DNA of 64,000 nucleotides from positions 20,947,925 through 21,011,924 of the forward strand of contig NC_092087.1 in NCBI RefSeq assembly GCF_045679555.1, written 5' to 3'. The position numbers and the translations under genes are program-made. This DNA is from Salvelinus alpinus (taxonomy: Eukaryota; Chordata; Actinopteri; Salmoniformes; Salmonidae). Position 1 is the first letter of the stretch; every line of letters starts with the position of its first letter. This document shows positions 15,996-64,000 of the stretch, one piece after another. The notes under the pieces are model-generated. The model was not told the DNA's origin and ran no database searches. It saw nothing but the letters and a program-made list of their open reading frames with translations.

Positions 15996-16099
15996 GGCTG
16001 TGTGCCCGATTTTATAAACCTGTCAGCAACCGGTGTGGCTGAAGTAGCCAAATCCACTAATTTGAAGTGGTGTCCACATACTTTTGCATACATAGTGTA

Positions 16100-31200: not shown

Positions 31201-34200
31201 CAAACATTGGCAGTTGAATGGCCTTACTGAAGAGCTCAGTGACTTTGAACGTGGCACCATCATAGGATGCCACCTTTCTAACAAGTCCGTTTGTAAAATT
31301 TCTGCCCTGCTAGAGCCGCGAAGTGGTAGGCCACACAAGTTCACAGAATGGGACCGCAGCATGTTGAAGCGCGTAGTGCGTGAAAATCATTTGTCCTCGG
31401 TTGCAACACTCACTACCGAGTTCCAAACTGCCTCTGGAAGCAGCGTCAATACAATATATGTTTGTCGGGAGCTTAATGAAATGGGTTTCCATGGCCGAGC
31501 AGTCTCAAACAAGCCTAAGATCACCATACGCAATGCCAAGCATCGGCTGGAGTGGTGTAAAGCTCGACGCCATTGGACTATGGAGCATGGAAATGAGTTC
31601 TCTGGAGTGATGAATCACACTTCACTATCTGGCAGTCCAAAGGACTAATCTGGGTTTGGCGGATGCCAGGAAAATGCTACCTGCCCCAATGCATAGTGCC
31701 AACTGTAAAGTTTGTTGGAGGAGGAACAATGGTCTGGGGCTGTTTTTCATGGTTCGGGCTAGGCCCCTTAGTTCCAGTGAAGGGAAATCTTAACACTCCA
31801 GCATACAATAACATTGTATATGGTTCTGTGCTTCCAACTTTGTGGCAACAGTTTGGGGAAGGCAGTGTCCTGTTTCAGCATGACAATGCCTACGAGCATA
31901 AAATGAGGTCCATAAAGAAATGGTTTGTCGAGATCGGTGTGGAAGAACTTGACTGACCTGCAAAGAGCCCTGACCTCAAACCTATCGAACATCTTTGGGA
32001 TGAATTGGAATGCTGACTGCGAGCCTAATAGCCCAACATCAGCAGCCGACCTCACTAATGCTCTTGTGGCTGAATGGAAGCAAATCTCCGCAGCAATGTT
32101 CCAACATCTAGTGGAAAGCCTTCCCAGAAGAGTGGAGGCTGTTAAGAGGTGTCCACATACTTTGGTCCTGTAGTGCAGCTAGTTACATCCCAACTTTTCA
32201 TGAAAAAAGCTTTGTGATTCTGAAAGAGGCATTGTAGAAAGTGTAGCATGGAGGCAACAGTTAAAAAATGTATCTCATGCCTGCAGGCCTTATTTCTCTA
32301 TTAGCTAATGGGCACAGACCAGCTGCAGTAGTTACCTCATTTATTAGCTTACCCAGGGGCATCTCAATGATTTTCAGCTCTGGTACGCGGCAGACTTCAT
32401 TGATTCTGTAACTCCATGCATATTTCTACTATATCTCCTTTTGACTATTTAGTATAGAAAAAATTATGTGTATTCCTGTTTGGAAAATGTGTCAAACATG
32501 TTAATAAATCATAGGACATTAAATGTTAAATAAAAGGGAGACAAAAGTTATGGTAAATAAGTAATTTAGAATAGGTGGTAGAAAAATAAACAGGGTAGAG
32601 CAGCCAAAGCAATAATTCATTAATAAGCATTGAAATCGGTCTGTGAAAAGCAGATTGATCAACTATTCTGTTCCCTGTAAAACTGGAGATACAACTGATG
32701 AGATCATCAGAATCAAAGTGAAATATACCAAAACTGGGATATACAGTACATCACTGCGGCTTAGCTTTCAGAATAAATAAGTTGTGCACATTGAACAAGT
32801 TACAAATACACACTTCCTACCACTTCTCAGTGATTAGCATTGCTGGAAAATATAGACATACAGCAACGTTCTAAGTAATGTTAGCACTAATAGTGTTCAA
32901 GGAGGTCATAGTTTGCACACTACAAGGTACAGAAATTATACTGAATTACCTAGACCACCACACATCTCTATCACAAGATAGAGTGGAACCAAACTGTAGA
33001 GTGGTACCTGCTAAAGCCCCTAACAGCTGGACGTGCATGTCTGGTTTCATCACTGTGTAGATTTATGCTGTGGAAACTATGCTGCAATAGAGGATAGTTT
33101 AAAACCAAGCCTAGATGTTATTCTGTGCTGGGGAATGGACAGTTGTCAAGTTCAAGGGAGGTTATTCAATCTAAACTCTTTATAAGAGTTTTCAATCAAT
33201 AATTTCCCCCACTGGATAGCTACATTGTTTTTCAGTGTATCCTGCTTCCCTGTTAAGTATTTTGTGAATGACAGTTTATTTTTATGGAAACGGACAGGGG
33301 CGCAACTTTCACTGGGGACGGGAGGGACATGTCCCCCCCACATTCTGAAATTGAAAAATAACAAATTATGTCCCCCCCACAGAGTTGTGTGTGTGCGTGC
33401 GTGTTGGTGGAATTAATACTCATTTGTGTGGATACCCAGAATATATTATTTCCTGTTTGATAGGGGAGGTTCTTAGCGAGGCCCCAGTCAGTGTCCGGAA
33501 GCTGAGCGTCATTCCAGAAAACGAGACAGATCCAGGGAAGTCTGACCCAGACCAGGCCTCCCATGATCCTCAGCGGCCCAGGGAAAAGGACAGCTCCACT
33601 TCTCTTTTCACTGTGAACAAGTACAGCAGGAAGTCCTCCTCATCAGACTCTCTCTCCACCTCCTCTCATCAGACTGACACAGGAGGTAAGTCACACAAGT
33701 TGCATTCACACCAGCCTCATGATTGAACAATTAAAATGTTATAATACACTCCACAGTCCAAGTGACAAAGACAAAGTTCCCCTAACACTGGTCTCTGTTT
33801 CATGGCAATTGTCTTCTAGAAACAGGTAGTCAGGACATTAGCAATAGGATATGCAGCAGCTCAAGACAAAGCTGTATACTCAATTCACATCCTGTATGGT
33901 CAAGCCACAGACTACTGGTTGATGTTTGTAACCCACTACTTAGTAAGAATTTAAAATGCGACCTATTACTAGCTTCATATTTTACTCTGCTGTAAGCATG
34001 TTTAAATGCATTTTTATTATACATTATTAAAATGTGTGAATAATTCAGATACAGAAACGACAGTAGAAGAAAATCCTATAATGTAAAAACTTGTCACTTA
34101 ATGAAGCAACACAATTGATTGCATATGTACTTGAATTATTTAAAACATAGATCAGGAAAATTGCGATGCACTGATTAGATACATATTTATTAAGCAATTG

Positions 34201-35370
34201 ATTCAAAATGATGTTTCAGTACATAGTTGTAGAGATGTTGGTGTATGGAATAGATTATGAAAGTTAGACTTTTTTTTAAATGTATTTGGACACTTATCCA
34301 AATAGCCTGGCATATGTTGCATATCTAGTTATACTGCACTTGTGTGTTGCAAAGCTGTTTATATTATAGCATTATCCCCTAATTCTAACTGATTAACAGT
34401 TATAAAGACCAACTCCCAATGCATTTCTCAGCAACAACCCACATTATTGCTGTCTCTTCATGGTCATCATTTTAGCCCAGTGACCTCATGTTAAATGGCA
34501 CCCAGGGGGTAGCAAGGGTGCTGGGAAGACCCACAGCACGTTGTTTCAGAGCAGCCACGGTGCAACTTTAGAATGTTCCTAGTGAAAGACCCATAGAGGC
34601 TGATGGTAATTGATTACGTCTCCAAACAGCTTCCTCAGTTGTCTCCCTGTAAGGGAGTGAGAGGTGATTTGCTAAATTATGCATGTGTAAAGGAAAGCCC
34701 AGGGAGAGCGTGGAAGCTTTTAAAATGTTCAAAACAATAAGTGAGGACTGACAGCATGCAGGTCTTTTAGGAGCACAGTCGATCTATGTCCTGAAGACAA
34801 ATCCCAAGGTATAGGGGCTGGCTGTTGGAAGCATTTATTACAGCACAGACTTTTAAATGGGTCACAGTTATGGATTGTCTAGGCTGCACATTTTTTTAGG
34901 AGATAGCATTTTCCTGTCACATTTTTGGGAATATAATGTCCTTAAATAGACATCTTAATACATTCATAGTATGTCCTAATTTCAGTTATTAATTCAATAA
35001 AAATGAACAACTTATAAAGTTAAAGGGTTCAGCATTATCTATGTATAGTTTAATGTTGTACTAGAATCTGATCGCTCTTAATGTTCTCCCATGTTTTCCC
35101 CTCTTCCTCTCAGCTGACTGTGCAGGGATTGTCCTGAGCTGCCTCTTCTGTAGGTTCTACGATCTGTTCCTCATGTTGCCAAACTCCTGTGAGGAAGCCA
35201 CCTATTGCTGCTGCCCTTCCTACAGACAGTACTCCTCCTCAGTGGAGGCCATACCTAGCAATGACTGCAACTGTAACTTTGACTTTGACTGTGGCCTGTT
35301 TGACACCTGTCAAGAGACAGGTGAGTTTCTGGAGCTGGCTATGGAGCTTTCTGAGATATGTTATCGCTAG
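28263..35370 (+). CDS. mdfic2: MyoD family inhibitor domain-containing protein 2 (mdfic2)
   Basis: Exons are 28263-28365 (candidate first coding exon), 28675-28773, 33464-33685 and 35114-35370. All junctions are GT-AG, all in phase 1. The model gives 226 residues from ATG 28263, 212 from ATG 28305, or 191 if translation starts at ATG 28677, so the start is unsettled. The last exon encodes the I-mfa domain: 12 cysteines in about 85 residues, with [13 protein letters not shown] and DCGLFDTC matching the MDFI/MDFIC pattern. It reads through a GTGAGT sequence at 35321 to a TAG, which the family alignment favours. The preceding exon ends in a Ser/Thr-rich stretch ([14 protein letters not shown]), as in relatives. 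Family members bind transcription factors and retain them in the cytoplasm, and MDFI/MDFIC also bind PIEZO channels; this paralogue's role is not established here. Two Tc1 copies lie in intron 2. Confidence 0.88.
29281..30812 (-). mobile_element. Tc1/mariner element in mdfic2 intron
   Basis: Ends AACTCAGCAAAAAAAGAAAC and GTTTCTTTTTTTGCTGAGTT are inverted repeats, with TA at 29279-29280 and 30813-30814. Length is 1532 bp. The stretch at 29720-29870, including a run of C, does not fit the transposase frame and looks like local replacement or insertion. Confidence 0.93.
29478..30570 (-). pseudogene. Tc1 transposase remnant
   Basis: Minus-strand pieces include the second DNA-binding block (29869-30300: [19 protein letters not shown], then [10 protein letters not shown]) and, separately, the C-terminal block [20 protein letters not shown] with [15 protein letters not shown] (29478-29696). 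Stops and frameshifts separate them, and the central catalytic segment is degraded. Confidence 0.88.
31084..32175 (+). mobile_element. Tc1/mariner element in mdfic2 intron
   Basis: Left end CACTATATACACAAATTTAT after TA (31082-31083). The right end TACTTTGGTCCTGTAGTG is followed by CA, a mutated TA. It belongs to the same family as the elements at 13580-16097 and 54505-55128. Confidence 0.9.
31124..31956 (+). pseudogene. Tc1 transposase remnant with internal deletion
   Basis: Frame 31124-31648 carries the N-terminal DNA-binding domain ([19 protein letters not shown]) and [12 protein letters not shown]. Frame 31663-31956 carries [17 protein letters not shown] and QHDNAYEHK. About 20 codons between the first and second helix-turn-helix are missing (SALLEP joins directly to RSGRPHK) compared with the copy at 14150-14533. 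Stops at about 31648 and 31956 end the frames; the C-terminal DE region follows out of frame. Confidence 0.9.
33292..33395. repeat. Short dispersed repeat beside an mdfic2 exon
   Basis: Contains ACTGGGGACGGGAGGGACAT and two TGTCCCCCCCA blocks, a pattern I recall as a common salmonid dispersed repeat. It ends about 70 bp before the 33464 acceptor. Confidence 0.5.
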
Positions 35371-36477: not shown

Positions 36478-37582
36478 TTTCTCTACTCGCTAAACATTTA
36501 TTTTCTGTTATCAGATGTGAGGACCAACAGTGTAATCCTGCTGTACAAACAAGAAGAAAGTCACAGCCCAGTTGTCTGAGACACTGAGCTCATGTAATGC
36601 TGTTGTATTGTTTGCTGAGAGTTACAAAGTTATACTGGTTTATATGAAAATGCATATGGAGAGTATTTGTGAAAAAACACGAAAGCTTTTGATTGTGAAC
36701 GTTAGGCTAAACTATTGTATGAAAACTGGATCTTGACGTTTTAAGAGGACTTAACCACAGTATGCTAAAATTAAATTGGTGACACTCCTGCCTAGACCGC
36801 AGTAGAGTAGAACAAATAGTAACACTGTATGCAGACACCTAATGACCATGTTTAGTAAGCATTTTGTGCAGAATGAGAACGCTGCTTGTGACCAATTTGC
36901 TTATTAACTGCAGCGGCACAATTACAAAGCTGACTACTCCAGCTAATACTGCACCATAAAATCTATTGAAGGTCCTTTGTGGGTTTTTAAAACATAAAGT
37001 GTGTCTGCATAAACAGATGCTTGGCTTAAACTGAAAACATCTGCCCGTCTTAAACTCGCTGGAACTCTTTCAAATTACCTGATAGCTTGGGGAGCAGCAT
37101 GGGTTTTAGGATCTCTAATGCATTTTAATCACATCCAAATGGCCTGTCCTTTAGAGCCCCGGTTCACAGGATGTCCCAGCTAGATGTCCCAGCTCAGTCC
37201 AGGAGGAGAGGAGGAGGTCAAGTGGCTGTCATTGCTTTGTACTGTACCACATGCATGCGGTTAAATGGCTGCTCACAGAATAGTGTTGACCTTATCTTGC
37301 ACGTCTCACCACTGTTCACAGCTGAACTCAAAACACGTGTGCAAAGAGTCTAATCTTTTAACATCGGCTTTGTTCTTGTGGTTGTATAATGATGTGCTGG
37401 GATAATTCTCCATTATTGTGTTTAGTGATGCTAGACTTGCATTAAATAAAGTTTATCTTATTATCTGCTGTGTTAGCTGGCATGTTGACATGCATCTCTG
37501 CTCTCTAATCGGATGTGAGTTTTTCTTTGGAGTTTGAGGCCCCAATCGCTTTATTATTGTGATGCAGGCTCTTCCTCCACAG

Positions 37583-44194: not shown

Positions 44195-44330
44195 GAGCAG
44201 TGGTTCCTAACTCCGGTCCTCCAGTACCCCCAACAGTACACATTTTGGTTGAAGCCCCAGACAAACACACCTCATTAAACTTGTCAAGGGGTTGATGATT
44301 AGTTGACAAGTAGAATCAGCTGTGCTTGTC
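44195..44330. repeat. Dispersed repeat fragment
   Basis: The stretch CAGTGGTTCCTAACTCCGGT, followed by CAGTACCCCCAAC and TTGATGATTAGTTGACAAG, matches a repeat common in teleosts. The matching right end is not visible. Confidence 0.55.
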
Positions 44331-44525
44331 CGTGGTGTCAGATTTGGTGTCAGATGTGGTGTGTGAGGCAGACACACTCTTTGATGTGTTAAATATGAGA
44401 TCTGACCACAGAACAAAGCAGCTGTCAGACACAGACTGTTGTCAGAGGCAATCCACGCCAATTATTATTGAGTATCTGTCATGCATGATTCAGAGGCTCC
44501 AAAGATACTGAGGAATGCCTAAGGC

Positions 44526-44733
44526 AGGATTTCCCAAACTCGGTCCTAGAACCCCGCCCCCCCCCCCCCCACGGCACACGTTTTGGTTTTTGCCCTAGCA
44601 CTCAACAGTTGATTCAAATAATCAAAGCTTGATGATGAGTTGAGTATTTGAATCAGATGTGTAGAACTAGGGCAAAAAACTAAATGTGCACCCAGGGGTG
44701 GCCCCGGGACCGAGTTTGGGAAACCCTGGTCTA
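44526..44733. mobile_element. Palindromic MITE
   Basis: Inverted ends GGATTTCCCAAACTCGGTCC and GGACCGAGTTTGGGAAACCC enclose about 170 bp with internal inverted motifs (TTTTTGCCCTAG and CTAGGGCAAAAA) and a C run near 44558-44570. Structure resembles hAT-type MITEs. Confidence 0.8.
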
Positions 44734-47531
<2,798 letters not shown>

Positions 47532-47881
47532 GCAGGTGAGCTGATGCAACTCTCACCATCAGAGAAAACACAACTGTGGTGGTATAATGAAAATGAAATG
47601 TACTTGAAGGAGCTTTAAAAAATGAATTAAACAGTCTTGACGGCCATTTCCATCCCCTGGGCTTGTGCAACTAGGTTGTATCAATAATTGCTCATTTAAA
47701 CATGCATATAATTAAAACCACTATTATTCCCAAGTTTGAATCAAGGTCCCTAAAATGTCAAGCAGTCTGCCGTTTGGAAAGGTTACTTGGCGTCTGTGTG
47801 TCTTTCCCTACATGTGTTGCCATTGTTTTCTCTTACTGGCGTGGGGTTGATCAACTTTGAAGGACAGTGGTTAACTCATGT

Positions 47882-48240
47882 TAAAGGCCCAGTGCAGTTA
47901 AAAACACCATTTTCTGGTGTTTTATATTTCCACACTATGAGGTTGGAATAATACTGTAAAATTGTGAAAATGATGGTTATGCTGTTTTAGTGTAAAAGCT
48001 GTTTGAAAAGACCGCCTGAAAGGTCAAGTTGTTTTGCAGGAAGTGAATAGGCCAATAACAAAGAGAGTTTCAAACCTCTCTGCCAATAACAGCTAGTTTT
48101 TAGGTTAGATATCCCTCTCATTAGGTTCCTCCAATAAGGCTCCCAGACAGTCCTAAATTCTTGCTAGAGAAATTGCTTTCTGCCAAGACACTTTGTTTCC
48201 AATAAAAATGGTCAAAAATAAACAATCACAGTAATTGGAC
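47882..48240. mobile_element. MITE, same family as 24160-27795
   Basis: Begins TTAAAGGCCCAGTGCAGTTA and ends CACAGTAATTGGACCTTTTA. Inside are the family's TGTGAAAATGATGGTTATGC and CTCTCTGCCAATAACAGCTA stretches. Uninterrupted here, so it gives the element's length of about 360 bp. Confidence 0.75.
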
Positions 48241-51004
48241 CTTTTACCTACTACAGTTCTGACACTGTTGGCAAAATTGACAGAGGCTTTTATTGTGTCA
48301 ATTGTCTTTCAACACTATCAAGGTACTTGGTCCCCCATTTTCTACTCACTACCCTTCCTAATTTTGATAAACGTATGGTATGACCACAATAAGGATGATT
48401 GAGGTGATTTAACTGTATTTACATCAGTGAAATGAAGCATTTATTGACCTGTTGAAAGTTAAATGATTTTAAATAATAGATTTTGTCCACACTTCATTGA
48501 CACAATAGGTCCTGTAGACCTACTGTTGTAAGAGCCTTAGCTCCATTTATAAAGGCTATACATTTCATTTTCAAATATCTCACTCACTAGACTAGGGCTG
48601 AAGCATGATAAAATACATCAATAAAAGGGTATTGATGTTGTCAAATGTTAATATGCCATCTATAAACCCTGACGTACTCTCTCACCCAGATACAGGCTGT
48701 GCTCCGCTCTGTGTTGTCTCCTCCTGTTGTCGCATCGACCCAGGGCTACTCACAATTTGCTTCTGCTGTAAAATGTTGCATTCCAGGACAAACATGGACA
48801 TTAATCAAAGTTGATTTGAAGTGCGAGGGCACAAGTGCTTTTGTGCTGAAGAACTCTTTAGCACAACACCGGCATGTTCGCGGGCCCCGCTCCTGAGCGT
48901 AATTGCAGCACAAGGAGGTCATAAATAATGTATTCAAGATCACTTACACCTCATGAAGCAAGCCATAGGTTTGGAGAGATCACATTTTCAGCTCAAAATA
49001 CTAGATTTGGCTCTTGTGGTTGCGCTTTCCAGGGAAAACAAGATCTTCAAAAAGGGCTTTGAAACCGTTTAGAGCAATACAAAACATAATAACATCAAAA
49101 CAGTTTAGACTGAATTATGAAGTGAATAAACTCCTGACTAAAGTGAGGTGTTGTAGGCAGCAGTACAGAGGATGGAGTTTAACATGTTGCTGTGGATGCT
49201 ACAATAGTTATGCCTTAAAAACTATAGGCTACACTTTAATGAATTGACAAAATGATACACCTACTGTATGTATGACCCCAGTCGACCTGCGTTTAGGTAC
49301 AACTAATGGAAAAACACAATAGAAGTTGTTACCTGACATGTAAATGTTTGTCTTTAGTTAAGATTAAGAGAGTAGATTACAATCAGAACAGTTATTACAA
49401 TTCCCAACATAAACTGTGTAGATACCTGCATAACAATTACTGTGAACCTTGACAATTACTCACCTCTTGGCAAGCAGTAGCAACAGATTAATTAATTAAT
49501 TAAAATGTCATTACATTTTTCATACATTGGAAATGTAACTATTTCAGTTTCATTTTAATTGAAAGTACTGTACATTGCGCTTGTTCAACATTTCAACACA
49601 GATTCATTCCCATGTCGAGCTGTTTGCACACTAGAATTGCAGATGTCTTTTCAATCCTAATTTCCTCACATAAACATATAGCAGACCCTTTGTTATTACC
49701 CTCGGATAATGGCAAATAATGTTCTTGATAACCCCACATTCAAACAGTGATTATCCTGTATACTGAAAGGTGGAGAACAGCAAATATCTGTAGCTCCCCA
49801 TCTCTAGACTGCCCCCTTGTGGCCATCTGACGAAATGCCTAACTAATATTCTACCCTCGTTATATTAAGATGTTTATTAGGTCATTCTGGATACATTTTT
49901 ACATTCACTGCTTACAGAAATCAAATTTCTGATATTGTCGTGTGAGGAAGTTGTGTCTATCTACCATGCAGGTTTGGTTTGTCTTCTACATTAAATCCAA
50001 CTGAAATGCAGAGCTCGTCAGATCTTTCCATATCTAAACGGGATCCTCTCACTCACTAGCCCCGTTAATAAGGGACCCCATTATGTAAATCTGAGTATGA
50101 CCAATAATAGTGAGAAGTTGCTCACACAAACAAGCACTGTCTCATTGCATGGATGGTGCTAATTGGACACTCCTTTGGTATAATTGCAGTGACTAAGGCC
50201 GTGCCCTCAGCTAACCTCTCCTTTAAGCATTGTTTTGCAGCACATAAACAGTACAGGGAGCAATTAAGATGTGGATTGTAAGCACCACTTGGGGGACCAA
50301 TCAGCAAAACCATGAGAGAAGAGCTGAAGGAGGGGGGTACGCTAGGGTACCCGGAGAAACACAACCATCCCAGGACTGTCAAACAGGGAGGTATTACACA
50401 TTTATATGCATAGAATGTCTAGTTAGCTTTGAAACCATATTTATGTGTTCAGTATGTAGTCCCCATAAGGAAAGGATTAGTTACAATATTAAGTTTGATA
50501 GTGTTTATTTTAGAAAGAGACTGTATTTCGTACAGTTGTCATACACATCTCAGCACTTTCTACTATGCCCAACCCATCTTTTGCAATCTAATATCCAGTA
50601 CGTACTGCACTTGCACAGTAGAAAGCAGCATGCATTCAGTGTATTAAAATCTTGAACTATGAACCCGTTTCAAGTACTTTTCACTTATGAAACAAATACC
50701 TCTGATGGGGCCAATGGTGTCAAAACCTGTTTATAAGATTCACTCACAGATTCCAGCGTGAAAAATGTTCCTTTATAAAAACACAGATGTCCAAAGGATT
50801 TGCAACAAAGTGTGCATTTCTGTCAAGAAAATTAACAGGGATATAAAAGCACAATTGTGTCGAAATAAATGTCCCTTTTATGTGAAGACTACTGTATGAA
50901 ACTGTAAAATAATCTCCAATCTGACATAATGGTAAACCAGGGAGGTAATCACTGATCTAATCTTTATGTTATCCTATTCTCCCTGTGGAGATCAGTCACA
51001 GTGG
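48241..51004. other. Intergenic, nothing recognised
   Basis: Only short frames without motifs. No repeat termini identified. Confidence 0.5.
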
Positions 51005-51175
51005 TTGCCACAGGAGGCTGATGAGGGGAGGACGGCTCATAATAATGGCTGGCATGGAGAGTGGAAATCAAACACATGGAAGCCAAGTGTTCCATATCAT
51101 TCCATTCCAGCCCTTACTATGAGTCCGTCTCTCTAATTAATGTGCCACCAGCCACCTGCGGTGGGTGTCTATTCC
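51005..51175. mobile_element. Palindromic MITE at the MT-Ox 3' end
   Basis: The left half (GCCACAGGAGGCTGATGAGG) and right half (CCACCAGCCACCTGCGG) are imperfect inverted ends, with an inner AACACATGGAAGCCAAGTGT palindrome. It is a decayed member of a very common salmonid MITE. It starts 45 bp downstream of the MT-Ox stop, so the 3' UTR probably runs into it. Confidence 0.65.
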
Positions 51176-51219
51176 CAAGAGTGAACCAAGAGTGGGAAAA
51201 ATTAAGCTTCTCCCTCTCT

Positions 51220-54200
51220 CTACCACAGACTTTGCCCACCCTCTATGACTAAGTTATGCCCTGTCATGTAGTCGGAGGCGTCAGATGCCAAGTAGACCAC
51301 TGCAGCTTGCAGGTCTGTCACTAGAGCCAGTCGTCCAGCAGGGATATCTGACAGCCAGCGCTTCACCAGGGGCCTCAAACTCTCCGAGTGGATGAGAGGG
51401 GTGTCAACAATCCCCCTGAAAAGAAAAAGTGAGACAGAGATGGAGGGAAAGAGAATTCAGAGACATCAGACTTCAAAGCCAGGAGTGACAGCAGTGTGGC
51501 GTTTCAGAGCCACCACTTGGGTAACCAAAATAAAATAATAAATAAACCCAATTACCCTTCAGAAAAAGGGTACATCTCTGATGATATTTACAGTGGGACG
51601 CGTGGTGTTAAATGACTGGCACGTCGCAGGAAGCGCCACCGGGTACGACAGGACCCTAGGTGTAATTTGCCTTCAGGAGCCTGTACATTATCACTTTCTC
51701 TGTCTCCCTGATTCCTGCCTGATATGTGCTTTAGCTGGTTTGATTCTCAGGCATAGTGCTTGAGTGGCATTTAAAGGAAACAGGTGTGTTGGTACTGTAG
51801 TGATTTCCTCATCTGATTTCCTCCTCTGAGACTTAGGTACTTTCATGTTTAGACAATGCTTGTGTCAGCATTAATCTATCATGACCAATGATTTTCTCTC
51901 CACCTATTGAAATATATAATTTGGATAAATGTGTCAACACAGCTGTGTCTAATGTGAGACGACTTCAGGCTTTTCACACAATCATTATGAAAGTAACTAA
52001 AAGCTTCACGGTCGACTCTCATCTTTAGCCCGTACCCAACATGTTAGGCATACAGTATTCCTGGCTGTGCCTTGATACAAATTCCAACATTTGGATAGAT
52101 TAGCGGCTCCAAGAAGCATGTGACACCTTGGTTAACATATTCCACCTCAATTATATTTCTCTTCAGCGCCCTGTTATCTGGAACCTTTCCTGGCAATCAG
52201 AGGTGCTGTTTTCCCTCAGCCAATTTTCTAGATAATGCAGCTTATCACCGGTGCGGCTAAAGTTGCCAATGAAATCAGGCTGCAGTCAACCTCGCACTCG
52301 CTAATTGTGTCCCTTTTTTATGCATATTTACTGACTGTCACTTCTAAGAAATCAGCGCCCCATTGAGACAGCCAGTTAGAAGGGGGAAAGAATTGCTTCT
52401 TTGCAAATTAAAATTAGCAAACAAGCTGCCGATAAATAAAGCAGAGTGGGCGCTTTGTTCTGGGTGTGGTGACGGGCCCCGCATGCCGAGCCACCGGACA
52501 GATTTGCTGGGGCTAAGGGATGCTCGACTTAACACACAAATACACAGCGCAGCGAAGAGTGTTCCTCTGTTCTCTTCTTCCCGCCACAGCTTCACAGACA
52601 ACTAGATACAAACAATGTGCTATTGTTGTGGAGACACTTGGAGTGAGGATGCTCATTTGATTCCCTAATTGAATATAACAATTAGAGCAAGTGTTTGGTT
52701 CATTCCTCCCTAAAGACACCATCTAATTAAGGCTGAGCACATTGTTTGAGGGCTTAAATGGGTGCCTCATTCTCAAATTGAACTTTTACAATGGAGGAAA
52801 AAACTCAATCGCTTCTCATCATTACTGTTCTTGGCAGCTCAACAAATAGCAATACATACTGAACAAAAGTGTAAAGTTTCATGTTTCATGAGGTGAAATA
52901 AAAGATCCCAGAAATGTTCCATATGCACAGAAAGCTTTTCTCTTTTGGTCACAAAATTGTTAACATCCCTATTAGTGAGCATTTCTTCTTTGCCAAAATA
53001 ATCCATCCACCTGACAGGTGTGGCATATCAAGAAGCTGATTAAACAGCATGATCATTACACAGGTGCACCTGGTGTTGGGGACAAAAGGCCACTCTAAAA
53101 TGTGCAGTTTGGTCACACAACACAATGCCACAGATATATCATGTTTTGAGGGAGTGTGCAATTGGCATGCTGACTGCAGGAATGTCCACCAGAGATGTTG
53201 CTAGAAAATTGAATGTTCATTTATCTACCATATGCTGCCTCCAACGTCGTTTTAGAGAATTTGGCAGTACGTCCAACCGGCTTCAGAACCGCAGACCATG
53301 TGTAACCACGCCAGCCCAGGACCTCCACAACCGGCTTCTTCACCTGTCTGAGACCAGCCACCTCGACAGCTGATGAAACTGAGGAGTATTTCTGTCTGTA
53401 ATAAAGCCCTTTTGTAGGGAAAAACTCATTCTGATTGGCTGGGCCTGGCTCCCCAGTGGGTGGGCCTTGCTCCCATGTGGGTGGGCCTATGCCTGCCAAG
53501 GCTCACCCATGTTTGCACCCCTGTCCAGTCATGTGAAATCCAGAGATTAGGGCCTAATTTATTTATTTAAATTGACTGATTTCCTTATATGAACTGTAAC
53601 TCAGTAAAATGGTTTAAATTGTTGAATGTTGCATTTATATTTTTGTTCAGAATAGATGGGCTTGAAGTCCATGGACATTTTGTATGTGTACATTCTTAAA
53701 TCAAAGTTAGGATTGAAATTTTAAAAAGTATTTGTGATGTGTGAACTGTTGTGGCATGGTGATACAGATAAGATCTGACATTGACACTATAGGCCTATTC
53801 TGAAGCCAGGCCATTTAATAAAACGAACATTTGGGACACAAACTTACGGTGAGATGCAGTTAACTCGGACCCCTCTGTCGATCCACTCTGTGCCAAGTGT
53901 CTGTGTCAGTTTGACCACTCCTGCCTTTGAGGTGTTGTAGGCAAGCTGCTTCTGTGGATGGGGCACTGCAGAGGGGACAAATCAAGTCAAGTAGTATTGG
54001 TCCAACTACACCTGCATAGGTTTTTGTATTTAAAAAAAAAATCTGTATTGTTGTCGATCACTTGCTTTAAACTAAACTTGAACTAATTAAAACACATACT
54101 TCAGAGAGTTTTTATACATCTGGACTTATTCCACATTTCATTGTGTTACAGGCTGAATAAAAAATGTATTAAATACATTTTTGCAAATGCTGTTTTTGCA

Positions 54201-57200
54201 AATGACCCTCACTCATCGACACACAATGCACCATAATGAAAAAGTAAAAACATGTTTTTAGAAATGTTAGCAAATGTTAGCAAATTTATTGAAAATTAAA
54301 TACAAAAATATCTAATTTACATAAGTATTCACAGCCTTTTGCTATGACACACCACATTTTGCTCAGGTGCATCCAATTTCCTTTGATCATCTTCGAGATG
54401 TCACAACAACTTGATTGGAGTCCACCTGTGGCCAATTCAATTGTTTGGACATGATTTAGAAAGGAACACACCTGTCTATATAAGGTCCCACAGTTGGCAG
54501 TGTACACTATATATATACAAAAGTATGTGACAATCCCTTCAAATGAGTGGATTCGGCTATTTCAGCCACACCCATTGCTGACAGGTGTATAAAATCAAGC
54601 ACACAGCCATGCAATCTCCATAGACAAACATTGGTAGTAGATAAGCCTTACTGAAGAGCTCAATGACTTTCAACGTGGCACCGTCATAGGATGCCACCTT
54701 TCCAACAAGTCAGTTCGTTAAATTTCTTCCTTGCTAGAGCTGCCCTGGCTGGTCAACTGTAAGTGCTGTTTTTGCAAAGTGTAAACGTCTAGGAGCAACA
54801 ATAGCTCAGCTGTGAAGTGGTAGGCCATACAAGCTCAAGGAACGGGACTGCAGAGTCCTTAAGCGCGTAAAAATTGTCTCACTACCAAGCTCCAAACTGC
54901 CCCTGGAAGCAACATCAGCACCAGAACTGTTCGTCGGGAGCTTCATGAAATGGGTTTCCATGGCCGAGCAGCCGCACACAAGCCTAAGATCACCATGCGC
55001 AATGCCAAGCGTCGGCTGGAGTGGTGTAAAGCTCGCCACCATTGGACTCTGGAGCAGTGGAAACGCATTCTCAGGAGTGATTAATCACGCTTCACCATCT
55101 AGCAGTCCGACGGACAAATCTGTGTCAGAGCAGAAACTATACCATGAATTGTGTTGAGGCATATATCTGGGGAAGGGTATAAAACAAATACTAGTGTTGA
55201 AAGTTTCCTAAAGCACAGTGGTCTCCATCATTGGGAAATTAAAAAAATATGGAACTACGCAGACTCTGCCTAGAGCTGGCCGTCCAATCAAACTGAGCAA
55301 CTGGGCAAGAAGGAACTTGGGAGGTGATCAAGAACCCAATGACCACTCTGACAGAACTACAGAGTTCGTTGGCTGAGATGGGAGAGCCTGTCAGAAGGAC
55401 AACAGTCTCTAAAGCACTTCACCAATCAGGGCTTTATGGGAGAAAGGCCAGACAGAAGCTACTCCTGAAAAAAATATACGACAGCCGCGCCTGGAGTTTG
55501 CAAAAATGCACGTGAAAGACAGAGCACAAGGCAAAAGATTCTGTGGCCTGATGAGACAAAAATGTAACTCTTTGGCCTGAATTCAAAGCACTGGAGAAAA
55601 CCAGGCACAACAGACAATTCCTTGATTAGAAGCTGCTTCAGAGTGAAACGACTTTAGACTAGGGAGAAGATTTACGTTCCAACAGGACAATGACCCCAAG
55701 CATACAGCTAAAGCAACGCTGGAATGGCTTCAGAACAAGAAAGTGAAAGTTCTTGAACGGCCCAGCCAAAGCCCAGACTTGAATCCTAAGACTTGAAGAT
55801 TGCTGTTCACCGCCTCTCCCCATCTAACTTAACAGAGCTTGAGAAAATCTGCAAGAAAGAACGGGAGAAAATCCCCAAATCCAGTTTATACAGACATACC
55901 CGAGACTACACGAAGTGTAATCACCATCAAAGTTGCTTCAACAAAGTATTGACTCAGGGGTGTGAATAATTATGTAAATGTTTTCATTTTCAATTAAATT
56001 TGCTAACATTTCTAAAAACATGTTTTCACTTTGTCATTATAGGTTATTGTGTGTAGATGGGTGGGGGAAAAATCAATTTCATCCATTTTGAATTCAGGCT
56101 GTAACACAACAAAATGTGGAATAACCATATAAACTGCACTCAATGTCCAAAAGACAAACCGTACCGCTCTAATAACCATGAAACACACACTACAATGTAG
56201 ACTTTTTACCTTTATTTAACTAGGCAAGTCAGTTAAGAACAAATTCTTATTTACAATGACGGCCTACTCCGGACGACGCTGGGCCAATTGTGCACCGCCC
56301 TATGGAACTACCAATCACGTCCGGATGTGATACAGCCTGGATACGAACCAGAGACTGTAGTGACGCCTCTTGCACTAAGATGCAGTACCTTAGACCGCTG
56401 CGCCACTCGAGTACCCCTGCATATTATTCATTCTATCCATTTCAATCATAACTCAGCACCCTGGTTTCTACTGCATGCTACATGAAAACACCTCCATTAG
56501 GTACTTGGGACCCCGTGGATAAAGCCATGTCAAAATAATTGCTTGTAATGTCCAGTTACGCACCATCTTCAGCAACAAACCATTTGTTTGCCTTGACCAT
56601 CACAGATGCTGCACACTGCATGGGATGCTTGGACAGTGGCTAATTTCCCTCTGGTTGATTAATTATCACAGGGAAGCCTCCAAGTTACATACAACTTTAG
56701 TAGTTAACCTCGTCGCCCCTTGATCTCACTGCCAAATTGCTTCGGTCGGAACAGAGATGATAAATATGACACAGCTGCAGAGAGGCAGGGGCTGGTCCTG
56801 GGGAGACAGAGTGGATAGGAGATTCACGGTCCCTCGTTTGTTTAGAAAGGAATAGAGCTGATGTGAGGAGAGAAGAGGATGGAGGATGCTTCCATGATGG
56901 AGTGAGGAGGCGGTGCAGGCCCTTGGGTAGGACCCCAGCCTTGGAGGAGAGGAGGAGCACGTGAGGAGGAGCAAAGCCCAGGGCTTACACCCAGACTGAA
57001 GGTGAAAGCCGATTTATCAGGACAGGAAACACAGCTAAAAAAGCCTAACAGTGCTAATCCTCACTGAAGACCTGATGATACAGCTCCAAAATACCGTTCA
57101 AAACAGGCCTTCATCCTTCAAATAAACCTGCATTGATGTTTTCCGTCTTTAAGAGCAGTAATCCTTAGAGGGAGAAAGAGAGCACTGTCTAAAACCCTCT

Positions 57201-60200
57201 TTAACATCCCCCCTGCTACTTATTGCCCATTCTAAGTGGGGGGAAACGAGCCCTTTTCATCACAGGCCTACACATACTCAAGTCCTCAGGACAGATAGGA
57301 AGTAAAGATGGTACACAGGCTGAATGAGCGTGCCGCTGACATGATTCTCTCTATCCTCCTTAGTCAGGTCAAATACTTTACATCTACTCTCCAATACAGC
57401 CAAACAGCATGGGAACTATATATATATATTAGTTTGTCAAAAATGCTCTTCCTTTGTGTGGCCTACTATCATTCTCTTCAAATGTACAGGGGAGGGGAAA
57501 AACACATTTTATTCAGCAGATGGTCAAAAAGCTGTCATTGTCCAATTAAAATACACATTCACGGCTGCTTTTTGGTACCCTACTTGGCTAAAACAGGTCC
57601 CCTCTGATTATTCATTATGACAATACTATAACAGATGTCCAGACCAATAAAGTAAATTCCTGCAGGACTGTGCGTAACGTGAGTAATTGATCACTTTTTT
57701 TTGCCATCCTCTATTTACCAGCATGGCCCTGTTTTACAGATTGCCCCTGCAGTTGGGACTCAGGCCCATATGTCACAGCAGTTTATTGGCGATGACTATA
57801 CTGCTGATGAAGTGTTACTGTTTCTCTGGAGGAACGTGTAGGAGGATTTACACTGGGCTGGGAATAACTCCCATTTCACAAGGCACTTAGTAAAATGTAA
57901 AAGCATCTGCTGCTTAAACACAGCCCTTTACAGAGGCAGGCAGGGTTGTTGCACAGGAAGCCTTTTACATGTTGGACCTCAGGTTTCCTTACTAACACAT
58001 CCTCCCTAGAGCTCAGGAGATGGATGTTTATTATGATGCAAAACTGCCTTGATGAGCAGCAATCACAACTAACTGTGTTTGCAGCGGGAGAATAATGTGG
58101 GTGGATAAATCACTATAGCATTGTCCTGAATAAACAGTTATATGGTGAAGATTAGCAGTATTAGCAATTATACAAAAAAATAAAAAATAGATTGCATTTG
58201 TGAAATGGGTCACCAAGTTTCCTCCTCTGTCACTTTAAGTTCACTAAAGTACACTGAAATGGCAAGACTGTAGAATACCAAGCCCATTGAAGTCGTTTCG
58301 CAACGTTACAGAAAGAAACCGTATACAATTATGTTCTGGTGCACAAAATCAGTATTGAGTATTACATTACTGTACTTCTCAGTGTACTATAGGAGACATA
58401 TCAATGCAGCAACAAAGCTCAGGTCATTATTCTTCATTGACTCACCATACATGGAGATGAAAGGAAGACATTCTCCCTCTAAAATGTTGATCAAATCTAA
58501 AGGGAACATACAGGATAGATAGAATATTCACTAACCTATTAGACTGGCCATGGACGCTGTGTTAATAATCTTCCCATATCCTTGCTTCAGCATCACACGA
58601 CCTGCAGCCTGAGGCAAGAATTCAGGGAGAATGGACACATATTAGAAACATTCATCACACTTTTAGTATTGACACCCTATGTGTACACTTTTCATTATTA
58701 TTAATACTTACTCAAAGACCCTACTCAAACTCTCATATATTCCATGTGTAATTTACACGTCAAACATTCCCCCCCAAAACAGTTAGACGTGTAAACTCAA
58801 ATGCAAACAACTGTACATGTTTCCCATTTTCCAGACAGACTTATGCCACTGGTATGACCCTCTGAGTAATGAAATAGATCACACAGGTCTACAGTAGCAT
58901 ACTAGCCCAGGCTGCCAAAAGTGGGCTCTAGATCTGCACTATCGTCTTGGATTGATATGCCCAACCGTTAATACACTTGTGTCTCCCGTGGACCGGCTTG
59001 TACATAAAGCATCCTGCAGTCAGGCTGCAAAGGCATCATTTTCCTCTTTAACTAGCTTGAATGGCGGGCAGTTGGGGGAAAAAAAGGGAAAAATATGTGT
59101 ACCGTCTTAATAAAACATTTTCCAACCCCATTTCGCACCGCATTCAGCCGGTCCACTGGGGACACAAGTGTATTACCAGCTGGGCACATCAATCCTAGAC
59201 GATAGTGCAGATCAGGCGTCCCCTATAAGTGGCCTCGGCTTACAACAGAATACAGTAGAGGAATCACACACCTGACAACACATGAAGGTCCCCCTCAAGT
59301 TGACATCAAAGGTTTGGTCCCACTCTTCCAGACTGGTGTCCTCACTGGCTGAGTTCATGTTGATCCCTGCGTTGTTGCATGCTATTTGGATCGCTCCCCA
59401 TTTGGACACAATGCTGTCAATCATCCTCTCAACATCTAACGATTTGCTGATGTCAGCAGTAATCGCAATGCAATTTATCCCTGGATTAAAAAGTAGTGGC
59501 TGTTTAAAATGCAATAATAGGCAAGTTCGAAATTACTGATATTATTACTATTTTGTGTCTTCATATGCAAAATATGGTGCCATGTGGTGCAGATTAAAGT
59601 TTTGTCTGAAAATATAATATAATCAGATTACAATATACAACAGGGATAATGAACTAGATTCAGCCGCAGGACGATGGTTTCTTGAGCGGAAGGTCAGGGG
59701 GCCGGAACATAATTACAAATCATTTGTAGACTACAAAGTGACCGCAAGAAGCCAAAACAGATATAATATTTCACTAAAACAATCATTCAAACCTGGCTTA
59801 CATTTGCATACAATCACATACAATGAGTATACAAAACATTAACAACACCTGCTCTTTCCATGATAGACTGACCAGGTGAAAGCTATGATCCCTTATTGAT
59901 GTCACGTGTTAAATCCACTTCAATCAGTGTAGAGGAGGGAATGGAGACAGGTTAAAGAAGTTTTTTTAAACCTTGCTACAATTGAGAAATGGACCATATG
60001 CGTGTGCCATTCAGAGGGTGAATGGGAAAGACAAAGATTTAAGTGCCTTTGAATGGGGTATGGTAGTAGGTGCCAGGCACACCGGTTTTGTTGAGGACTG
60101 CAACGCTGCTGGGTTTCAGCCAACTTGACACAACTGGAGTCAAAATGGGTCAGCATTCCTGTGGAACGCTTTCGACACCTTGTAGAGTCCATGCCCTGAC

Positions 60201-63200
60201 GAATTGAGGCTGTTCTGAGGGCAAAAGGGAGGGGTGCAAACTCAATATTAGGAAGGTGTTCATAATGTTTTGTACACTCAGTGTAGTGTATATCTCTCTA
60301 TTATGAGTGGGGGTATTTTTACATCATGTCCAACAATAATAAAATAAAACAATTCAAATCTTGGGCCGCTAATAGGGGAACAATGATGTACAGTATTTCC
60401 TTGACGTTTCCCTGACAGTAGAGCACCATCTGCTGGTAATACATGGAAGGTTAATATGAAAATCCAACATTGTGACAATCATAGTTGTGTGCGCTAATGC
60501 CAAAGCCTTACCTTTCAATGTGAGCTCCTCTGCCACGCCCTCAGCCTTCCCTTGGTCCAGGTCTACCACAGCCACTTTGGCCCCAGCCTCTCCTAGGGCA
60601 TGTGCGAACGCCCTGCCTATACCCTGGCCTGCCCCCGTCACATAGGCCACCCTGCCGTCCAGACGCATCCGGTCCAGGATCGACCTCCCGTTCAAACCCC
60701 GGAATACCTCATCGTCTGTTACCTTGCTCTGAGACAAGTCAAACACAAGTGAGTTATAAGTGAGAAGGGAAAAGTCTGTATGAGCTTTTAAGTACTGTAT
60801 AGTCACCATTTGACTCATGGTAGTAACTACAGCTGTCAATGACAACAATGATAGTAATTTTCTTTTCCTTTTAGCACTGGCACTAAGTGTGGTTCTGACT
60901 GAGGATGCGTCGTATGTTACCTGTGTGCCTGCACATGCTGTTGCCATGGGTACTCTGCGGATGATACTGATGCCATCTCTGAGGGGGACAATGACCTTAA
61001 AAAAAGAAAAACCTTCTTTACTAACACAGGAGTAAACACCCAGCAATAATTAGACAGATTACAAGCCATGTCTCTCCACTGACCTGCTCCACACGAAGAT
61101 CACTCTTCACAAACTGGTTAAAATCTCGAAGCGCCAGCCCGTTTACATCAGCGGTGTCCTTTAGGTAAACCTTAGCCTTGAACAGAGAGTTATCCACACA
61201 TATCACACCACTCAGCCGTAGGAGGTTGTGGTCCAGGATGAACTTGTAGTAGTTGATGTAGTTGTTCTTGTCTGCGTCGATAAAGACCATGTCAAACTGC
61301 TCGCCTGCTGTAGCCAGTTCCTTTAAAAGAGACAATATTATCAGAGAGCTGGACCATTCACTGTCAATGAGCTAGATACACTGATACAGTGTCTAGCCTT
61401 TTACTCAGGTGTAATGGTTGATATATATATATATATATATATAATTGGCTATTTATTGTACTCATATTTATTACACTTACAAATAGGTGTGTTACTTTAA
61501 GTGATTTGGTTTGCATTGTATATGCATGTAACTATATAATGTGGTTATTAAGCAAGTAGACTAACATGTGTAATCACTGCAGGCTAAACTTAATCAATGT
61601 AGTTACACAACATGTAGTTAGTCACCTTCAAGCTATCCATGGCAGAACCAATCTTCACTGTTATCTTCTTGCCATGTGGAGACCTGTCAAATATGGGCTT
61701 AGCAAATTCTTTAAGATATTGCTCAATCTCACAGGCAACCAGTGAACCATCCTCGGGCAGTCCTTCAGCCATTGAGAGAGCACCATACCCTGTGAACATG
61801 CCTATCTCTAGGATCCTCTTGGCTTTACTCATGTGAACCAGCATTTTCAGAGTCTGGCCTGCCAATGAAACATCAAGACAAATATTTAGCACACTTAAAT
61901 ATGTATCTCAAACCAAGCATCCACACAACTGTACCCAATAGAGATGTCTCACCTTCCACATGCCCAGTGATGCACTCTTTTGGAAGCCGAAACTGAGTCT
62001 TGCCCTCCTCGAATACTTTATCCCAGTTGTGCTCCATCGTTTTCCTACACATCCGTATGGGATTAAGTAAGAATGTGCATGAGAAACCATCCATGTGAAC
62101 TGTGTCTGTGGGACGGACAAGAGAATTACTCACTGATACAGCTCAGCGAGAGGTGCACTTTCCTGGCTGCTCATTTTCTCCAGGTAGCCATCTAGACCAC
62201 ACGCTATGTCCAGGGCCTTCTGTAGGTTGACCCTCAGTTCCTCTGGAATGTTGGCATTGCTATCTGCTATCTCCTTGGCTTTGTTTAAGAAATCCACCAT
62301 GAATTCCATCGGGGTGTCAGAGACTGCAGAGAACACAAGACCAAAACTGTACACAAGCCTATACAGTATAGAACTAATGAGTACAGTAGGCTATTATACT
62401 AATGAACAATTTGAGACAGAAGGGGGGTAAAAAAAAAGGTGATACAGAGAAGGAGTGACGTTATAATAATATGGAATTCCAATGGTGTAAAGTACTTAAG
62501 TAAAAATACATTAAAGTACTGCTTAAGTCATTTTGGGGGGGGAATCTGTACTTTAATATTTATATTTCACAACTTTTACTCCATTACATTCATAAGAAAA
62601 TTATGTACTTTTTACTGCATACATTTTCCCTGACACCCAAAAGTACTTGTTACATATGGAATGTTACATATGATACGCACTTATCAAGAGAACATCCCTG
62701 GTCCTCCCTACTGCCTCTGATCTGGCAGACTCACTAAACACAAATGTTTTGTCTGTAAATTATGTTGGAGTGTTGGGAGCGTGCCCATGGCTATCCGTGA
62801 ATAAAAAATAATTTTGTGCCGTCTGGTTTGCTTCATATATAGAATGTAAAAGTATTTATACTTTTACTTTTAATACTTAAGAATATTTTAGCAATTACAT
62901 TTACTTTTGATACTTAAGTATATTTAATCGGAGTAAACTGCTTGTATAGATGTCAACCCCAATACATGTTAATGCCATCGTCACCACTCAACTGCAATAC
63001 AGTTCAAAACTAGACTACCACCACGGATTTCTGTATGCTAGCGATACTACAAACGGGAGTTAGGAAACTAGCATTAGCAGTCACTTATTCTAAACCTGAA
63101 AAGGAACCAATTCTAAATGTTATGTAGCGAAAACAACCAAATATATTCAAATCGGACGTTAGTAACTACATTGTGGGCATGTTACAATACATCAATCTTG

Positions 63201-63562
63201 ACGGATTTGACGAATATCTACTTTGTTAGATCAGATTTGTTAAATGTGCGCCAATCCGGCGTCCTAGTCCCCCACGGCTGCGTTCCATGCATTGACCTCT
63301 TAACCGCATCTAACTAGTCCTATGTGTAGGTTATTTAATTTAATTACAATTAATATAAATGTAATGTTTAGTTTTATAATGCAAAAATAGTGGATTATTA
63401 TGAATATACTATTTAAGTGTCCTATCATCTTTCCAGTTGATGTTTCCCCGCGACATTCTCCTGCATTCTACAACTAACTAGCCCAACCATTCATTCTTTC
63501 GAGCTTCTGCAATCATAGCTAGTTCTGTGAGAAAGACCCGACATACCTTTGGCAGCCTGCAT
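51220..63562 (-). CDS. MT-Ox: O-methyltransferase/oxidoreductase fusion (gadusol synthesis)
   Basis: Eleven exons, read on the minus strand: 63547-63562, 62134-62323, 61953-62044, 61626-61858, 61084-61320, 60921-60995, 60512-60728, 59272-59480, 58536-58608, 53848-53965, 51220-51415. All introns are GT-AG, all phases agree, and 1656 nt encode 551 residues plus TAG. The start ATG has A at -3. Residues 1-256 form a class I O-methyltransferase (SAM motif EIGMFTGYG 117-125; DADK 192-195 and DN 220-221 at the metal-site positions of caffeoyl-CoA-type enzymes). Residues 282-551 form an SDR domain (TGAGQGIG 312-319, Asp337 favouring NAD, NNAG 389-392, Ser442, Tyr457, Lys461). Known fish MT-Ox turns EEVS-made 2-epi-5-epi-valiolone into gadusol with SAM and NAD+. 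No inactivating change seen. mdfic2 lies nearby, as expected for this locus. Confidence 0.93.
52859..53652 (+). mobile_element. Internally deleted Tc1 in MT-Ox intron 10
   Basis: Starts CTGAACAAAAGTGTAAAGTT after TA and ends ATTTATATTTTTGTTCAGA. Same family as 24511-27750 but only about 790 bp. It keeps both ends and the N-terminal DNA-binding frame (53125-53373: [17 protein letters not shown]); the catalytic core is deleted around 53370-53510. Orientation is opposite to the host gene. Confidence 0.9.
54505..55128 (+). mobile_element. Right-truncated nested Tc1 fragment
   Basis: Begins CACTATATATATACAAAAGT after TA, the left terminus of the 13580-16097 and 31084-32175 family. It carries the N-terminal transposase region (54945-55157: [17 protein letters not shown] is the shadow frame; the true frame reads [13 protein letters not shown]). 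It stops after GACAAATCTGTG, where outer-element sequence (TCAGAGCAGAAACTATACC) resumes. The right terminus is missing. Confidence 0.82.
55250..55975 (+). pseudogene. Tc1 transposase remnant (intron 9)
   Basis: The frame at 55324-55515 has [19 protein letters not shown] and [13 protein letters not shown] from the second DNA-binding subdomain. Later sequence has [18 protein letters not shown] and SQSPDLNP in shifting frames. Multiple stops and a deletion around 55600 make it inactive. Confidence 0.85.
56207..56414 (-). mobile_element. tRNA-derived SINE, inverted, in MT-Ox intron 9
   Basis: The plus strand reads tail first (TTTACCTTTATTTAACTAGG) and head last (CCTTAGACCGCTGCGCCACT), with the box B complement GGATACGAACC carrying one change. 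Same family as 23014-23258. Transcription orientation is the same as MT-Ox. Confidence 0.88.
59823..60284. mobile_element. Non-autonomous transposon in MT-Ox intron 7
   Basis: Ends TATACAAAACATTAACAACA and AATGTTTTGTACACTCAGTG are inverted. The body includes TTTCCATGATAGACTGACCA and TGACACAACTGGAGTCAAAA, with no open transposase. A common fish repeat pattern of about 460 bp. Confidence 0.7.
61413..61442. repeat. (TA)n microsatellite in MT-Ox intron 4
   Basis: Short TA run of about 30 bp. Confidence 0.9.
62480..62945. mobile_element. Non-autonomous repeat in MT-Ox intron 1
   Basis: Left edge AAAGTACTTAAGTAAAAATA and right edge TTTTGATACTTAAGTATATT are inverted. The body (TGACACCCAAAAGTACTTGT, TATCAAGAGAACATCCCTGG) fits a repeat family common in salmonids. 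Non-coding. Confidence 0.7.
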
Positions 63563-63649
63563 GGTGAATTTCCACGGCGTTCGTAATACAAAATACACAA
63601 CAAGTTGTCAAATCACAAAGGGCGACTGGCAAAGCAGCTGTCTGTCTAT

Positions 63650-63657
63650 CTATATAG
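63650..63657 (-). promoter_or_regulatory. TATA-like box of MT-Ox
   Basis: CTATATAG lies 88 bp upstream of the MT-Ox ATG on the minus strand. That would put transcription start near 63620-63628 and leave a 5' UTR of about 60 nt. Position and sequence are suggestive only. Confidence 0.45.
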
Positions 63658-63751
63658 CTTAAACCCGTTTCAGTTGTGTAAATGTATCTTTATTGATGGC
63701 TTACGAAACTCCCCAAAATAAACTCCTAGTTTTCCACACAGTAGGTCCGCC

Positions 63752-63757
63752 CACGTG
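63752..63757. promoter_or_regulatory. CACGTG E-box upstream of MT-Ox
   Basis: A perfect palindromic CACGTG in the context CCCACGTGTCC, 190 bp upstream of the ATG. Such sites bind MITF/TFE, USF, MYC/MAX and CLOCK:BMAL1. A second, weaker E-box CAGCTG lies at 63635-63640. Confidence 0.45.
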
Positions 63758-64000
63758 TCCGTTGACCTGTAAGATCTGTCTATCGATGTCAAACTTTTTT
63801 TGTAAACCTTTCGCGACAAATTGTTTCCATCATGTTTACACTTTTGTCATGAGGTGCTGAAGAGTTCAAATGAGCCATGTAAAATGTGAAATCATTCAAA
63901 TGATATAATAAAATAGAATGGATTCTTAGCTCAATACAAAAAGACATGAACAATCACCTTACTTCAAGAATGTGCATATTTCCCATTACTCTACAAAAAA
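63758..64000. other. Sequence upstream of MT-Ox, no gene seen
   Basis: AT-rich, with no recognisable exon. In fish this side of MT-Ox would be the place to look for EEVS, which is not in the window. Confidence 0.4.

Follow-up and report, generated by a model that had tools for sequence, protein, structure and literature searches.

Can a salmonid fish make gadusol, an ultraviolet-absorbing antioxidant and natural sunscreen, from genes of its own? In zebrafish, EEVS and MT-Ox together yield gadusol, and for the reaction of the zebrafish enzyme we follow the available part of Osborn et al. 2015 (PMC4426668). The question is raised by a 64,000-nucleotide stretch of the Salvelinus alpinus genome, called the window here (C2:20947925-21011924, where C2 is contig NC_092087.1 of the 2.37 Gb, 928-contig assembly GCF_045679555.1), in which a sequence-only reading had placed an intact MT-Ox gene. 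Our analysis indicates that the window gene is very probably an orthologue of MT-Ox of zebrafish (zgc:113054), its product being a fused enzyme fed by a divergent EEVS neighbour, and the sequence points to a full two-gene route in this fish.

Structure of the MT-Ox gene

The MT-Ox coding sequence was rebuilt by script from the window DNA. It lies on the minus strand and comprises 11 exons running from 63562 to 51220, as follows.

63547..63562, minus strand: exon 1, 16 nt with the start codon; donor gtatgt
62134..62323, minus strand: exon 2, from the rebuilt coding sequence and a genome search with the protein
61953..62044, minus strand: exon 3, from the rebuilt coding sequence and the same genome search
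61626..61858, minus strand: exon 4, S-adenosylmethionine (SAM)-binding motif E-x-G-x-x-x-G
61084..61320, minus strand: exon 5, methyltransferase motifs D-A-D-K and V-D-N
60921..60995, minus strand: exon 6, end of the methyltransferase domain and linker; the PF01596 match stops at residue 271
60512..60728, minus strand: exon 7, start of the short-chain dehydrogenase/reductase (SDR) domain, T-G-A-G-Q-G-I-G
59272..59480, minus strand: exon 8, N-N-A-G motif
58536..58608, minus strand: exon 9, T-A-S-M stretch, its serine aligned to 3awd and 3gdf
53848..53965, minus strand: exon 10, active-site motif Y-N-T-S-K
51220..51415, minus strand: exon 11, ending in the stop codon TAG

Translation would begin at the codon 63562-63560, and the last base of the stop codon is 51220. 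All ten introns are GT-AG, with running phases 1,2,1,0,0,0,1,0,1,2, and the 1656 coding nucleotides read through 551 codons to the terminal TAG without interruption.

Domains and motifs of the predicted protein

Two Pfam domains span most of the 551-residue chain: PF01596 (Methyltransf_3) at residues 92-271 (E 1.2e-51) and PF13561 (adh_short_C2) at residues 313-548 (E 7e-60). Both are near full length against their models, and the chain matches four more families that share these folds. Because of these E values, and because each of the 11 exons also aligns elsewhere in the genome, on contig C12, the reading frame is more than chance. One chain combines an N-terminal SAM O-methyltransferase with a C-terminal SDR, as expected of vertebrate MT-Ox.

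The methyltransferase half carries E117-x-G-x-x-x-G, D192-A-D-K and V-D-N at 219, and the SDR half carries T312-G-x-x-x-G-x-G, N-A-G at 390 and Y457-x-x-x-K461. We take these to be the cofactor and catalytic motifs of the two halves, with the names and meanings commonly given to them, and we likewise take the serine of T-A-S-M in exon 9 to be the catalytic serine. An aspartate after the SDR glycine motif gives preference for nicotinamide adenine dinucleotide (NAD) over its phosphate (NADP). The aspartate of V-V-D-L-D, which follows the glycine motif in MT-Ox, therefore suggests NAD rather than NADP. The exon count, splice sites, phases and 551 stop-free codons given by the sequence-only reading were all exactly reproduced from the raw sequence (the strand, which it left unstated, is minus), and its claim of methyltransferase and NAD-type SDR motifs in one chain is borne out by the motifs of both halves and the Pfam matches to both domains.

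In the PDB, the methyltransferase half matched bacterial and plant O-methyltransferases (best 3r3h, 2.5e-33; best 60 of 163), and the whole chain matched SDRs (best 3awd, a putative polyol dehydrogenase, 7.7e-51; best 60 of 705). None of the best 25 of 224 NCBIfam matches of the chain reaches its own cut-off. The PDB matches are separate enzymes, and stand-alone bacterial SDRs are 58-68% identical to the C-terminal half, as might be seen if two separate genes, one for an O-methyltransferase and one for an SDR, had been joined into one frame by chance or artefact. However, separate matches are to be expected, because no MT-Ox is among the best 60 of 705 and best 60 of 163 PDB rows. Moreover, the halves are collinear with compatible phases on C2, they stand in the same order on C12, and the locus adjoins EEVS as in published vertebrate loci. 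Such a join is thus extremely unlikely, and a single fused gene is the preferred reading.

The neighbouring EEVS gene and gene order

A genome-wide search for DHQ_synthase (PF01761) gave matches at four places, on C2 (3.9 kb beyond the window end), C12, C17 and C28, and none inside the window. The C2 gene was modelled as EEVS with five exons and 463 residues on the plus strand (C2:21013340-21017424); it is complete and sits just beyond the window end. In the PDB it matches ValA best (4p53, 1.2e-96), the EEVS of validamycin synthesis, followed by 5tpr (1.1e-62), a 3-dehydroquinate synthase by its PDB name, which we take to be DDGS; all others are at 2.9e-35 or weaker. By this search, the C2 EEVS is closer to ValA than to DDGS or DHQ synthase.

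An EEVS inside the window was considered and rejected. When 42020-51220 was scanned with Pfam in all six frames, no DHQ_synthase match appeared, and the gene was found past 64000. Only Zip and Mucin matched in those scans, both below their cut-offs; across 1-42020, stop-to-stop frames of at least 70 codons were inspected by eye and a few were scanned with Pfam.

MT-Ox and EEVS are divergent, with start codons 1853 bp apart on C2 and 1306 bp between the corresponding places on C12. Part of this region falls within the window.

63563..64000, no strand: MT-Ox/EEVS intergenic part, a portion of the 1853 bp that separate the divergent start codons

CACGTG, a basic helix-loop-helix (bHLH) site, occurs at 63752, about 190 bp upstream of the MT-Ox start. 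It is kept in both copies, within a block in which 185 of 266 columns (70%) are identical between C2 and C12. A second CACGTG lies at 65215 in the C2 region, and the C12 region has three in total; any role for these sites is a guess.

On the other side of MT-Ox, the window holds two exons of an MDFIC-type gene.

35114..35370, plus strand: MDFIC-type last exon (PF15316, E 6.7e-17); no match in the C12 region
33463..33686, plus strand: MDFIC-type earlier exon, no Pfam match; 75% identical to a stretch at the corresponding C12 place

The earlier exon is assigned to this gene by its place, because it has no Pfam match and only the 75% identity at C12. Genome-wide there are eight MDFI matches, including C2:20983040 and C17:22555186, and none of the eight falls at the C12 or C28 cluster. 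DUF3371, presumably the C-terminal part of the MITF/TFE family, matches at C2:21021853, C12:13880633, C17:22532095 and C28:24019223, among 11 genome-wide. FOXP-CC matches (16 genome-wide) lie at C2:20874427 and 20879692, C12:13726078 and 13731628, C17:22563095 and 22563422, and C28:23989943. Because these Pfam models cover wider families, the names MITF and FOXP1 are given by place.

The gene order on C2 is therefore FOXP1-type, MDFIC, MT-Ox, EEVS and MITF-type. This is the setting expected of vertebrate MT-Ox, with EEVS adjacent and MITF, MDFIC and FOXP1 on the flanks. The available text of Xu et al. 2021 (PMC8294118) gives the teleost order as foxp1b-mdfic2-mt-ox-eevs-a-mitfa-frmd4Ba, and that of Osborn et al. 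2015 (PMC4426668) describes a MITF/MDFIC/FOXP1 neighbourhood of EEVS and MT-Ox in fish. The name MT-Ox proposed earlier is thus supported by the fused architecture together with synteny (the adjacent EEVS and the MDFIC, FOXP1-type and MITF-type genes). The earlier statement that at least the second step had been kept proved cautious, as the first-step gene EEVS, 1.85 kb away, also appears complete. On this evidence the MT-Ox gene is judged to be real, intact and correctly named, and the two-gene gadusol route of this fish looks complete.

In the route proposed here, EEVS, the divergent neighbour 1.85 kb upstream, would supply 2-epi-5-epi-valiolone (EEV). The NAD-type SDR half would oxidise a hydroxyl of EEV, and the methyltransferase half would move the methyl group of SAM onto the resulting enol, which would give gadusol. 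The order of oxidation and then methylation is the proposal of Osborn et al. 2015 (PMC4426668), in the part of that paper available. Values given there for gadusol are absorbance near 294 nm at pH 7 and 270 nm at pH 2.5, and m/z 203 in negative mode. We infer that the protein is produced and that it catalyses the same reaction as the zebrafish enzyme.

A decayed duplicate on a second contig

Two kinds of cluster occur in this genome. The a-type, with MT-Ox, is found on C2 and C12, and the b-type, with EEVS and with no MT-Ox match in the genome search, on C17 and C28. As far as the accessible text of PMC8294118 goes, 12 teleosts have one a-type and one b-type cluster, the exceptions being zebrafish (no b-type) and climbing perch (two mt-ox genes in the a-type). 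Set against one of each in teleosts, four clusters are what an additional genome duplication like that of salmonids would leave. Together with the genome size and the synonymous divergence between C2 and C12 (dS 0.153 for MT-Ox, 0.185 for EEVS), they agree with a salmonid host.

Each of the 11 MT-Ox exons has an alignable counterpart on C12, where several lesions were identified. Exon 1 is followed by AT where the donor GT should be, one nucleotide is inserted in exon 2, exon 3 is missing 16 bases and has gained 8 (a split that depends on the alignment), and 8 nt are deleted from exon 5. In exon 8, one inserted and one deleted base compensate each other; an apparent stop at residue 368 is an artefact of how this pair is aligned and was not taken for a lesion. 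Because the donor is lost and the indels shift the frame, the C12 copy is in its present state unable to encode the enzyme.

Searched with the MT-Ox protein, the genome yielded 52 matches at E 10 or below. All those below 1e-5 fall at C2 or C12; the best match outside them has E 5e-5 and 36% identity, and identity elsewhere is at most 57% over short stretches. Because the matches below 1e-5 are confined to these two places and the C12 copy is broken, no intact MT-Ox other than the window gene was found in the assembly.

EEVS has fared differently at its four places. In addition to the complete C2 gene, the C12 copy is complete except for its last residues, which are altered by a 1-nt insertion near the end. 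On C17, exons 2-5 have no stop in the matched parts, and exon 1 was not found by eye. The C28 copy (C28:24001012-24004788, locus L011) is a broken b-type gene with an in-frame TAG and indels. Because three of the four EEVS loci have kept their frames and an intact MT-Ox stands beside only one of these three, the paralogues may feed EEV into some compound different from gadusol, or may work in tissues that have no MT-Ox. This would be a second fate of EEV in vertebrates, which we consider unlikely.

Selection between the copies

Between C2 and C12, the MT-Ox copies differ by 0.045 nonsynonymous (dN) and 0.153 synonymous (dS) substitutions per site, a ratio of 0.29 over 539 gap-free codons, with the apparent-stop codon omitted. 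The synonymous excess is significant on rounded counts (Fisher p 3.5e-9). If synonymous changes are split evenly and all replacements are assigned to the window copy, arithmetic still gives a ratio of about 0.58. For comparison, the a-type EEVS pair on the same contigs has a dS of 0.185 and a dN/dS of 0.23 over 459 codons. Identity between C2 and C12, with gaps ignored, is 93.1% in MT-Ox exons (1632 sites), 88.4% in introns (5298) and 88.8% in the intergenic stretch 42020-51000 (7432); no collinearity filter was applied to the pieces, so repeat copies may contribute to the non-coding values.

The replacements in the SDR half, to which this count was confined (methyltransferase half and linker excluded), could be polarised against 18 bacterial relatives. 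Among 12 replacements, counted from the 13 listed from residue 300 on with residue 368 omitted, the commoner bacterial residue is that of C2 in nine, that of C12 in one and neither in two. At N394 and G547, all 18 relatives carry the C2 residue.

These data bear on whether the window gene might be an MT-Ox orthologue that was recently inactivated, in its expression or by a substitution invisible in the motifs, so that gadusol is not made from it. The duplicate on C12 has decayed, so the loss of one MT-Ox copy is tolerated, and both genes have been lost in two catfishes according to the available part of PMC6173838. However, the splice sites, frame and motifs of the window copy are all intact, and the dN/dS of 0.29 and the asymmetric changes favour constraint on it. 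Recent inactivation is therefore very unlikely, and a functional MT-Ox orthologue remains the preferred reading.

Several points weigh against this reading. The likeness to vertebrate MT-Ox is one of architecture and synteny, and the spliced gene and its protein are predictions from genomic DNA. The dN/dS value is pairwise and so includes the period when the C12 copy was still constrained. The genome search scores the best candidates only, and an extra MT-Ox copy may have been missed or may be unassembled. Additionally, the zebrafish pair is called tail-to-tail in the accessible text of PMC6173838, whereas the pair is head-to-head here; either lineages differ in orientation or the tail-to-tail description is not general.

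Bacterial and viral relatives

One scan of bacterial genomes, sensitive to close relatives only, gave 21 loci, of which 18 match the SDR half only and three the methyltransferase half only. The 18 SDRs (L053-L069, L073) are 58-68% identical to MT-Ox residues 296-551, and the three methyltransferases are 33-37% identical to their half. A bacterial fused MT-Ox was sought among them and rejected, as none of the 21 loci is fused or has both halves within its flanks.

An EEVS-like gene stands beside the SDR gene, in convergent orientation, in three of the 18 loci (L058, L061 and L062, from Lentzea and Amycolatopsis), and the EEVS-like protein of L058 is closest to ValA in the PDB (2.9e-121). In these three Pseudonocardiaceae loci (L058 3703-7124, L061 3699-7067, L062 3699-6824), the SDR is 64-66% identical to that of MT-Ox, and its gene also has an M24 peptidase gene beside it. 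Thirteen of the 18 SDR loci, all three EEVS-linked ones among them, contain an M24 peptidase relative, and L060 would be a fourteenth by virtue of a 40-residue match at its edge. A special sister relation of the EEVS-linked SDRs to the MT-Ox SDR half is not supported; the tree puts the three in a clade of their own within a bacterial group of eight. The MT-Ox SDR half branches at an unresolved fork in this tree. A viral carrier of MT-Ox was also rejected: five stretches in viral contigs matched a pattern, and none encodes a relative.

A shift of the fish enzyme to another substrate might be read from the four EEVS loci set against one intact MT-Ox, from the breadth of the SDR family, and from the 15 of 18 bacterial SDR loci that have no EEVS relative within their flanks. 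However, the window copy adjoins an intact EEVS in published synteny, and we give such a shift hardly any weight. A gadusol-forming MT-Ox is thus still preferred.

Repeats and other features of the window

The sequence-only reading had also noted a transposon load in the MT-Ox introns, and transposase fragments were indeed found in introns 9 and 10.

53975..56123, no strand: intron 9 stretch with two Tc1/Tc3-type transposase fragments (PF01498); missing at the matching C12 place
52822..53669, no strand: intron 10 stretch with a helix-turn-helix fragment (PF13384); flanks 55 bp apart on C12

The flanking bases of the intron 9 stretch, 53974 and 56124, map to C12 at 70 bp from each other, and parts of 53975-56123 match other places in the C12 region. 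We take PF01498 to be the Tc3-type transposase helix-turn-helix, and the fragment at 52822-53669 is probably Tc1-like. The load is real: at the matching place of the duplicate locus, both fragment-bearing stretches are missing.

Elsewhere in the window, a 36-bp minisatellite of about 123 copies occupies 37578-42018 and is strongly asymmetric between strands (GC skew about -0.78); both of its flanks overlap on C12 in about one unit. A 69-bp unit is repeated in about four near-identical tandem copies at 36200-36484. At 14568-16022, a minus-strand open frame of 485 codons contains a reverse transcriptase domain and represents a retroelement fragment.

Comparison with known systems

MT-Ox is already known, and in a group already listed as carrying the gene: in the available part of Osborn et al. 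2015 (PMC4426668), Table 1 includes Oncorhynchus mykiss and Salmo salar and puts no minus sign, its symbol for absence, against either, although marks of presence are not visible there. To this we add the complete adjacent EEVS, the divergent arrangement and the decayed duplicate. The find is ordinary except for this dead MT-Ox on another chromosome; among the open-access titles listed as matches, none concerns salmonid MT-Ox duplicates, and such work may exist elsewhere. Because the second step has one intact copy and the first step several, MT-Ox offers a clean knockout target, as removing one locus should end gadusol synthesis. Moreover, the paired live and dead copies provide a within-genome control for important residues.

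Compared with the stand-alone bacterial SDRs, the fish gene differs in its fusion, as all 18 bacterial loci have no relative of the methyltransferase half within their flanks. The green algae K. nitens, C. zofingiensis and C. subellipsoidea are alike in having EEVS clustered with a two-domain MT-Ox (PMC7826186, available text). The algal clusters also encode an ATP-grasp protein and another O-methyltransferase. Near the fish genes, the scanned frames yielded no ATP-grasp match (the minus strand of L005 lay outside the scan). The closest likeness is to zebrafish MT-Ox (zgc:113054), which by its description in the accessible part of PMC4426668 has an N-terminal methyltransferase and a C-terminal NAD-type oxidoreductase in one chain, and an adjacent EEVS in the same MITF, MDFIC and FOXP1 neighbourhood. 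This fish differs in carrying a second, broken MT-Ox on another contig.

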